This document shows positions 2,392 to 61,933 of a DNA stretch of 64,000 nt, in pieces. Source of the stretch: Catenuloplanes atrovinosus (GTDB taxonomy: Bacteria; Actinomycetota; Actinomycetes; Mycobacteriales; Micromonosporaceae); the NCBI RefSeq assembly GCF_031458235.1, contig NZ_JAVDYB010000001.1, positions 3,989,001 through 4,053,000 of the forward strand, read 5' to 3'. Numbering within the stretch: position 1 is the first letter of the stretch; every line of letters starts with the position of its first letter. The translations under genes and the position numbers were made by a program. The notes under the pieces are model-generated. The model was not told the DNA's origin and did no database searches. It was given only the letters and a program-made list of their open reading frames with translations.

Positions 2392-3152
2392 CCGACCCGG
2401 CGACGCCGCAGACCGCCAGGGTGTGGAACTACTGGCTCGGCGGCACCGACAACTTCCCGGCCGACCGCGCGCTCGGCGACGAGATCGCCCAGGCGTTCCC
2501 CCTGGTCGTGGAGATCGCGCGGGCGACCCGCTCGGTGCTGACGCGCGCGGTCCGGCACCTGGTCGCGGAGGCCGGCGTCCGGCAGTTCCTGGACGTCGGC
2601 GCCGGCCTGCCGACCGCGGACAACACGCACGAGGTGGCCCAGTCGGTGGCGCCGGAGTGCCGCGTGGTCTACGTGGACTTCGACGCGCACGTCCAGGCGC
2701 ACGCACGGCGGCTGCTGCGCGGCCACCCGGCCGGCGCCACCGACTTCGTCCACGCGGACCTGCGCGACCCGGCGACCATCCTGCGCGAGGCCGCCCGCAC
2801 GCTGGACCTGGACCGACCGGTCGCGGTGATCCTCTCCGGCATCCTGGCGCACCTGCCGAGCGCGGCCGAGGCGCGCGCGGCCGTGCGGGCGCTGATGGCG
2901 CCGCTGCCCTCCGGCAGCCACCTGGTGGCCATCGACGGCGCGGACACCAACCCCGAGCTCAACGACGTGATGCGGATCTGGAACCAGACCGCCGACCCGC
3001 CGTACGAGATGCGCTCCCCCGCCGAGATCCGCTCCTACTTCGACGGGCTGGAGCTGCTCCCGCCCGGCCTGGTCGACGTCACGCTCTGGCACCCGGCGGG
3101 CGGCCCGGTCCCCCCGCTGGACAACCTCATCGGGGTGGCCCGCAAGCCATGA
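2388..3152 (+). CDS. SAM-dependent methyltransferase, DUF574 family
   Basis: The 254-residue product starts at the ATG overlapping the MMPL stop and follows a GGGGGAG ribosome binding site. Its N-terminus has the DUF574 signature RVWNYWLGGTDNF, followed by the SAM-binding segment FLDVGAGLPT and an acidic strand ending VYVDFD. DUF574 proteins are abundant in actinomycetes and adopt the class I methyltransferase fold, but their substrates are mostly unknown. The coupling to the exporter suggests co-expression, not necessarily a shared pathway. Confidence 0.9.
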   Translation: MTDPATPQTARVWNYWLGGTDNFPADRALGDEIAQAFPLVVEIARATRSVLTRAVRHLVAEAGVRQFLDVGAGLPTADNTHEVAQSVAPECRVVYVDFDAHVQAHARRLLRGHPAGATDFVHADLRDPATILREAARTLDLDRPVAVILSGILAHLPSAAEARAAVRALMAPLPSGSHLVAIDGADTNPELNDVMRIWNQTADPPYEMRSPAEIRSYFDGLELLPPGLVDVTLWHPAGGPVPPLDNLIGVARKP

Positions 3153-3189: not shown

Positions 3190-3267
3190 ATGAGCGAGCT
3201 TGCGAGCGAATCATCAGCTCAGCGCCGACCACGGCGTGACGGCAGCGGGAAGGATAACGCGGCATGA
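3190..3267 (+). CDS. repeat-encoded mini-ORF 1 (25 aa)
   Basis: It encodes MSELASESSAQRRPRR followed by DGSGKDNAA, a basic peptide with no known domain. The TGA overlaps the ATG of mini-ORF 2. No strong ribosome binding site precedes this first copy (GAGAATGCCGGGC). Expression is plausible but unproven; it may serve only as a translated leader. Confidence 0.4.
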   Translation: MSELASESSAQRRPRRDGSGKDNAA

Positions 3268-3341
3268 GCGAGCTTGCGAGCGAATCATCAGCTCAGCGCC
3301 GACCACGGCGTGACTGCGGCGGGAAGGATAACGCGGCATGA
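3264..3341 (+). CDS. repeat-encoded mini-ORF 2 (25 aa)
   Basis: Same first 16 residues as copy 1, then a DCGGKDNAA tail. It has a GGGAAGGA ribosome binding site from the preceding unit and is coupled at both ends by ATGA. The start and stop geometry is preserved despite base changes in the unit, which hints that the reading frame matters. Confidence 0.42.
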   Translation: MSELASESSAQRRPRRDCGGKDNAA

Positions 3342-3415
3342 GCGAGCTTGCGAGCGAATCATCAGCTCAGCGCCGACCACGGCGTAATTGCAGCGGGAAG
3401 GATAACGCGGCGTGA
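3338..3415 (+). CDS. repeat-encoded mini-ORF 3 (25 aa)
   Basis: Same first 16 residues, then NCSGKDNAA. Its TGA overlaps the GTG start of the small lipoprotein gene (GTGA at 3412-3415). This copy is therefore the immediate translated leader of that gene. Confidence 0.42.
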   Translation: MSELASESSAQRRPRRNCSGKDNAA

Positions 3416-61784: not shown

Positions 61785-61933
61785 GCCGGGCTCCCCGGAA
61801 CGCTGCGGTTCCGGCGTGGTCGGCGCTGAGCCGATGATTCGCTCGCAAGCTCGCTCATGCCGGGCTCCATCGGAACGCTGCGGTTCCGGCGTGGTCGGCG
61901 CTGAGCCGATGATTCGCTCGCAAGCTCGCTCAT
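61781..61933 (-). repeat. two in-frame copies of the mini-ORF repeat between permease genes
   Basis: Units start at ATG 61933 and 61858, 75 bp apart. The first 44 nt of each match the 3.2-kb copies apart from one base (TCA to TCG). The downstream part differs and instead holds a CGGAAC/GTTCCG stem and a GGAG-type ribosome binding site. The stop of the first permease gene overlaps the first ATG, and the last TGA overlaps the second permease ATG. Confidence 0.95.
61781..61933 (-). CDS. repeat-encoded mini-ORF (50 aa)
   Basis: Because this period is 75 bp, both copies read as one frame: MSELASESSAQRRPRR, then NRSVPMEPG, then the same 16 residues again and NRSVPGSPA. The product is basic with no known domain. 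It is coupled by ATGA on both sides, so ribosomes finishing the first permease could pass through it to the second. Confidence 0.5.
   Translation of the reverse strand: MSELASESSAQRRPRRNRSVPMEPGMSELASESSAQRRPRRNRSVPGSPA

Follow-up and report, generated by a model that had tools for sequence, protein, structure and literature searches.

Relay repeats: short units at start codons and stop/start overlaps of actinobacterial genes, probably passable by ribosomes

Introduction

In Catenuloplanes atrovinosus, a small gene is preceded by three tandem copies of what looks like a gene start, each overlapping the next at a stop/start joint. The locus lies near one end of the window, by which we mean the whole stretch of 64,000 nt that was analysed. 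It raises the question of what has been copied here, and why the copied frames remain open. The initial annotation took the array for an amplified translation-start module and offered several possible roles, namely a translation-coupling buffer, a source of basic micropeptides, an RNA regulatory leader, or a selfish element tied to ATGA junctions. From the sequence comparisons described below, we consider it probable (roughly 0.75) that the copies belong to an interspersed actinobacterial family, here called relay repeats, which sits at start codons and RTGA overlaps, is selfish or neutral, and can be passed by ribosomes.

The array and its flanking genes

The three units follow one another at a spacing of 74/74 and lead into the GTG of the small gene (Table 1). 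Over 85 nt, units 2 and 3 are 98% and 94% identical to unit 1, respectively. Each mini-ORF has 25 codons and is terminated by the TGA inside the next ATGA or GTGA, and the predicted peptides consist of MSELASESSAQRRPRR followed by DGSGKDNAA, DCGGKDNAA or NCSGKDNAA (units 1, 2 and 3). The 3' end of each unit is GGGAAGGATAACGCGGC, after which comes the next ATGA or, for unit 3, the GTGA at 3412; the SD-like GGGAAGGA stands before all joints of the array. The array is thus real as first described, in its coordinates and spacing, and the exact overlap of each stop with the next start was verified in all three units. A second array in the window, on the opposite strand, joins two ABC-transporter permease genes.

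Table 1. Relay-repeat arrays in the window and the genes around them (positions are those of the window)
Feature	Position	Strand	Remarks
Upstream S-adenosyl methyltransferase gene, PF04672	~2400..3152 (nominal 5' boundary)	+	stop 3150-3152
Relay-repeat unit 1, 74 bp	3190..3263	+	ATG 3190; mini-ORF 3190-3267; SD-like GGGAAGGA 3247-3254
Relay-repeat unit 2, 74 bp	3264..3337	+	ATG 3264; mini-ORF 3264-3341; SD-like 3321-3328
Relay-repeat unit 3, 74 bp	3338..3411	+	ATG 3338; mini-ORF 3338-3415; SD-like 3395-3402
Downstream small gene, 53 codons	3412..3573	+	GTG overlaps mini-ORF 3 stop (GTGA)
ABC-transporter permease gene downstream of second array, PF00528	60936..61784	-	start = last ATGA joint
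Second array, unit 2, 74 bp	61785..61858	-	ATGA joint into next gene
Second array, unit 1, 75 bp	61859..61933	-	in-frame joint, ATG still present
ABC-transporter permease gene upstream of second array, PF00528	61930..62796	-	TGA shared with first unit's ATGA

Unlike most arrays of the family, the focal one does not begin at a stop/start overlap, as 37 nt separate the methyltransferase stop from unit 1. The methyltransferase belongs to a large paralogous family, with 17 PF04672 matches in the same genome. The 53-codon gene gave no match in Pfam; its product has a hydrophobic N-terminal part containing RR, and an Asp/Gly-rich end.

A family of interspersed units

On the contig that holds the window (8,906,892 bp), a 23-nt core of the unit, with up to 3 mismatches allowed, gave 142 matches (71 + 71), and the reversed core gave none, so the focal array is not a chance arrangement. 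We traced 53 arrays with 134 units in this genome (53 regions were examined, of which L088 held no array under the threshold and L071 held two), a count that takes in weak end units and, at L090 and L113, a last unit that runs on as gene. A census with a sequence model built from 38 units found at least 155 matches in the same genome and 23, 37, 37 and 32 in four congeners (G001 to G004).

A unit is one start-to-start module, laid out as an RTGA, the conserved core GAGCGAGCTTGCGAGCGAATCA, a tail that varies in sequence and as a rule closes with an SD-like stretch, and then the RTGA of the next unit. Twenty of the 53 arrays have only 74-bp inner joints, 13 have only 75-bp ones, 3 are mixed or irregular, and 17 are single units. 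Units inside one array are near-identical, which points to growth of the arrays by local tandem duplication.

Position at stop/start junctions

To locate the coding frames of the flanking genes, GC at the third codon position was used. In 38 of the 53 arrays, the upstream coding frame terminates at the TGA of unit 1; one more is placed as TAATGA, and 14 lie elsewhere. At the other end, 43 arrays have the joint that lies 74 nt inside their last unit in frame with the downstream coding sequence, and the ten exceptions include the short focal gene, in-frame fusions, run-on last units and irregular arrays. The chain of mini-ORFs terminates on an ORF starting directly after the last unit in 45/53 cases (43 of these ORFs having at least 90 codons); of the other eight, four continue in frame into the downstream ORF as fusions and in four the last unit runs on into a long ORF. 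The exceptions in joint length are L061 and L082, with joints of 64, 71, 72 and 73 nt.

A further set of 40 loci (12 from the same genome and 28 from congeners; 39 among the census matches listed, and L267 from another search) contains the core in 37. In 33 of these the units relay into an ORF that has at least 90 codons or continues past the end of the stretch, while two are fused and two do neither; intact joints are favoured in this set, because the model that selected it contains the next RTGA. The upstream stop coincides with the TGA of the unit in 21 loci. No clear relay was seen at L234 and L267, and L239, one of the 33 relaying loci, has a weak core and no start codon. An enrichment of the copies at start codons, on which the initial annotation had staked its reading, was looked for and found in the arrays of this genome, in the further set and in the named genera described below.

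Two kinds of joint

The initial annotation had noted that each unit shifts the frame and that every frame still closes exactly. This proved to be a rule of the family, to which a second, in-frame mode has to be added. The 81 inner joints comprise 41 of 74 bp, 33 of 75 bp, and seven of 64, 68, 71, 72 or 73 bp. A start codon is present in all 43 inner joints whose length is 2 mod 3 and absent from 28 of the 34 whose length is 0 mod 3 (Fisher P 1.7e-15, a value to be read with the relatedness of units in one array in mind, which are not independent). In the startless joints the ATGA is altered and the GC or GT behind it is kept, mostly uniformly inside an array and differently between arrays. By hand count, the inner start has been lost in 10 of the 13 arrays with only 75-bp joints, whereas the 20 arrays confined to 74-bp joints all keep it; the three of the 13 that retain it have ATG (two) or TTG (one). 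In most arrays with only 75-bp joints (10/13), the in-frame run ends at an ATGA located 74 nt inside the last unit, whereas L072, L077 and L104 are fused to the downstream ORF, for which N-terminal extensions of ~75-100 residues are predicted.

SD-like tetramers, scored with an anti-SD sequence, are found ahead of 86 of the 101 joints that have a start and of 9 of the 33 that lack one, the latter being 28 inner joints and five last units that had no start at the distances tried. Among eight arrays with both kinds of joint, the SD of the last unit is stronger in just five, so the link between start codon and SD-like stretch is no more than suggestive.

Empty and occupied sites in congeners

The repeat-free, joined flanks of 17 of the 53 arrays (that of L090 without the first 74 nt of its gene) were searched in the four congeners. 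At six loci (L063, L085, L101, L108, L110 and L112) the alignment crosses the junction without a gap, and by this alignment the congener genes there overlap directly as ATGA or GTGA. At least 12 of the 17 loci, the focal one included, lack the unit in at least one congener, although an empty site in a relative could also reflect a deletion. At the precise stop/start junctions, the alignments show an RTGA on both sides of the apparent insert and a single one in the empty sites, which is consistent with either a 4-nt duplication or an RTGA carried by the unit. The relay repeat is probably mobile.

In three congeners the alignment passes straight across the focal site, and in G002 the two genes are ~1.4 kb apart, with the core absent from a 3.2-kb stretch. 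The DNA of the 53-codon gene is kept in all four congeners, each time without any trace of the module. These data bear on the origin of the focal array. Tandem copies directly before the gene would speak for slippage duplication of that gene's own start, or for chance, yet the same module recurs in 52 other arrays of the genome. The genome-wide family and the array-free congeners together refute both accounts, to which we give practically no credence. What survives of the proposed amplification of a translation-start module is the start-to-start unit; the start is not that of this gene, but belongs to an interspersed module.

In congeners the junction is often taken up by a different insert. 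Thirteen junctions with unit-like inserts were chosen by eye (two without the core; the other length differences, at L080 in G001, G003 and G004, L101 in G003, and L111 and L112 in G002, were left out), and 12 of them relay into the next gene, the final start lying at a distance of 59, 62, 65, 74, 77, 152 or 209 nt. The L064 junction carries a unit in all five genomes of the genus, with GTGG instead of RTGA as the first start in G003.

Distribution among actinobacteria

The 24-nt core RTGAGCGAGCNTGCGAGCGAATCA was found in at least 120 stretches of named genomes, of which 80 loci were kept. The loci listed include Actinoplanes, Catenuloplanes, Pseudonocardia, Kutzneria, Amycolatopsis, Actinokineospora, Saccharothrix, Kibdelosporangium, Nocardia, Rhodococcus, Nakamurella and Mycolicibacterium. 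Of the 82 first units listed from these genera, 60 pass on to another ORF by a relay, 19 are continuous with it in frame and three do neither, as compared with relay at 104 of 809 control RTGAGC sites in the same DNA. The 19 fusions, in which the core runs without a frame change into the ORF that follows, bear out an impression recorded in the initial annotation that Micromonosporaceae proteins often have MSE-type N-termini. The RTGA of the unit supplies the TGA on which the upstream gene stops at 60 of 78 testable sites vs 59 of the 809 controls (four of the 82 sites lack upstream sequence, and 12 ambiguous ones were scored as misses in the 78, likewise in the controls). The final start lies in a coding frame at 70/82 sites vs 539/809 controls, a measure that says little because the control is also high.

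The family is patchy in its distribution. In a class-wide sample, a 24-nt pattern with up to 2 mismatches matched 4 of 394 genomes, C. atrovinosus counted. Within the bacterium's own family, 10 of 81 genomes contained the 23-nt core when at most 1 mismatch was allowed, C. atrovinosus and three congeners counted, with 79 matches in C. atrovinosus and at most 26 in any other. An exact search with 34 nt gave no match among named genomes, a set outside which the genome's own or very near records possibly lie. The core also occurs in single mycobacterial records, L298, L309, L347 and L124 (genus g3), and the sites read there (L347 excluded) comprise one fusion and two short relays of 23 nt, with no arrays. 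In L305, from an Actinophytocola MAG, the core forms an in-frame tandem repeat that is much shorter (GAGCGTGCGAGCGAATCATCAACACAGG...), possibly a third mode of growth.

What is conserved in the units

The relay frame is interrupted by an internal stop at 1 of 38 loci, where ~6.8 would be expected (P 0.004), and at that single locus (L069) the unit is shortened and relays after 14 codons. The peptide behaves differently. Its first residues, MSELASESSAQRRP, show good conservation among the loci; the tails vary from locus to locus, and differences between neighbouring units are spread over the three codon positions (48/59/58). Silent changes make up 35 of 120 codons with a single difference, about what random placement would give. 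There is thus neither codon phasing nor a surplus of silent changes, which argues against the proposal that the units are a source of micropeptides.

The CGCCG/CGGCG hairpin remarked upon in the focal array is present there, but it is not kept in the family: 72% of the cells are paired, the middle pair is found at 12 of 38 loci, and the pairing is no better than in shuffles. RNAalifold predicted 12 pairs, one of them with both sides changed, and the covariation term was not favourable. With covariation not above the shuffles, the idea of an RNA regulatory leader built on this hairpin loses its footing, and an RNA hairpin element was rejected because the fold is not conserved across the family. 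As the frame remains open while peptide and hairpin drift, what is maintained appears from these comparisons to be a passable open frame, and not the peptide or the RNA fold.

Comparison with known repeats

Mycobacterial interspersed repetitive units (MIRUs), reportedly described by Supply et al. in 1997, are the closest parallel in build. According to later papers, MIRUs seem to be mobile and, inserting at start codons, become coupled to the gene with a spacing of -4 nt (PMC12548453), and among M. tuberculosis strains a correlation was seen between the length of a MIRU-VNTR region and the mRNA of the gene that follows (PMC2734929); they are also described in a third paper (PMC4213456). An example is provided by L155, taken as mycobacterial from the identity of RegX3, in which six 53-bp MIRU units stand upstream of regX3 with inner TGATG joints and, as in relay repeats, a last ATGA. 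By these descriptions, both repeats are built of short units that follow one another in tandem within operons and directly adjoin a start codon, with a mini-ORF joined to the next gene by a stop/start overlap, units of 3n-1 nt and an SD-like tail; both vary in copy number and are missing at the same place in related species. The start-codon and overlap architecture of MIRUs is found here in 38 of 53 first units, which lie at an upstream stop, and in 45 of 53 chains. The differences concern the sequence itself, the unit length (74, 75 or 77 bp in relay repeats, 53 or 77 bp in MIRUs) and the inner joint, which is ATGA with a 4-nt overlap in relay repeats but TGATG with a 1-nt overlap in the 53-bp MIRU of L155. 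Unlike MIRUs, relay repeats have a second, in-frame joint with a lost start, and they occur in many actinobacterial genera.

Aligned with one 53-bp MIRU of L155 (the 77-bp type being excluded), the relay-repeat consensus of C. atrovinosus gave a score reached by 372 of 1000 shuffles. Against the wider relay family, the MIRU showed a weak excess, its mean being reached by 5 of 200 shuffles and its best score by 16 of 200. The relay repeat is thus built like a MIRU; remote kinship is possible, and a clear kinship of sequence is not supported. In the open-access PubMed Central literature, which is without the original MIRU paper, no description of the relay repeat and its in-frame mode was found.

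REP elements with RAYT (Y1) transposases are also small repeats of high copy number. Relay repeats differ from them in having no conserved, covarying hairpin and in being tied to gene starts. The mobilising enzyme was sought as the Y1 transposase family alone (PF01797), which had no match in the C. atrovinosus genome and matches in 5 of 14 control genomes; with the Y1 transposase missing, a REP/RAYT identity was rejected. Rickettsia palindromic elements are tolerated in genes by staying in frame; they are palindromic and lie inside coding genes, whereas relay repeats lie at starts. The enterobacterial RU-1, RU-2 and RU-3 elements (127, 168 and 103 bp) are described as MITE-like, and resemble relay repeats in being small mobile intergenic sequences with open frames (PMC2759123). 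Relay repeats differ from these in their lack of inverted ends: the 25-nt ends of the consensus pair no better than shuffles (423/1000), and a MITE was rejected on this ground.

Discussion

A selfish or neutral repeat is the simplest account of the element. A ribosome finishing the upstream gene could reinitiate at once on the RTGA of unit 1, would read about 25 codons, would end on the next RTGA and would so be passed along to the downstream gene; in 75-bp units it would stay in one frame through the array. Such a hand-over is inferred from the sequence, in which the majority of units have an open frame and a length of 3n-1 nt. A frame that can be passed would make an insertion nearly neutral, so that copies persist, and selection would act for the open, passable frame and not for the peptide. 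Of the roles first proposed, a selfish element tied to ATGA junctions fits best, judged by the arrays, the further set and the named genera. A bolder version, which we hold to be doubtful though worth stating, is a widespread actinobacterial class of mobile repeats that targets the RTGA overlap itself and has two interchangeable modes of remaining invisible to ribosomes, namely reinitiation through 3n-1 units (with start and SD-like tail) and in-frame reading through 3n units with a lost ATGA. In that version, the RTGA or the translated mRNA may guide insertion, and selection would be more than a filter acting afterwards on its own.

The most serious competitor is that the arrays are functional regulators, in which copy number tunes downstream translation as a coupling buffer or attenuator and for which the family is kept. 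The preserved joints and open frame agree with this, as do the unit at the L064 junction throughout the genus and the reported tracking of next-gene mRNA by MIRU-VNTR length in M. tuberculosis strains (PMC2734929). However, avoidance of harm alone also predicts preserved joints, and the patchy presence (at least 12 of 17 loci without a unit in at least one congener) and the range of 23 to at least 155 matches per genome speak against a maintained function; we regard this explanation as unlikely. Somewhat less likely still is that relay repeats are MIRUs in the strict sense, one family inherited or transferred. The shared architecture of tandem 3n-1 units at a start codon, with overlapping joints and an SD-like tail (PMC12548453), speaks for it, whereas the alignment at shuffle level (372/1000) does not; the weak excess in the wider family (5/200 for the mean, 16/200 for the best) leaves room for a remote kinship, and strict membership is not supported by the consensus alignment.

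That the mini-ORFs encode functional basic micropeptides is very improbable. Their conserved beginning, MSELASESSAQRRP, would fit, but it is explained by common descent of the repeat, and the tails that differ among loci, the even spread of differences over codon positions (48/59/58) and the near-random share of silent changes (35/120) are not those of a selected peptide.

If relay repeats are selfish or neutral passengers, they suggest that translation itself decides the survival of small repeats on a genome scale, as frame length, start and open frame are kept and the peptide drifts. With 0 to 7 units, two joint types and empty sister sites, they offer a natural series for gauging reinitiation at ATGA overlaps. 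They also carry a warning for annotation, since in some actinobacteria N-termini of the MSELASES type and ORFs of 25 codons belong to a repeat, and they suggest that MIRU-like elements extend well past mycobacteria.

Other inserts at stop/start junctions

Some congener junctions hold sequences of another kind. Two core-less 65-nt inserts and degenerate short tandem repeats are found in L206 and L204 (G004) and, at the L080 junction, in L209 (G003) and L212 (G004), and several families of repeats may have their hot spots at stop/start junctions. At the L101 junction of G003 (L184), there is an insert of 23 nt, a length of 2 mod 3, in which, judged by eye, a GTG...TGA mini-ORF would close on the next GTGA.
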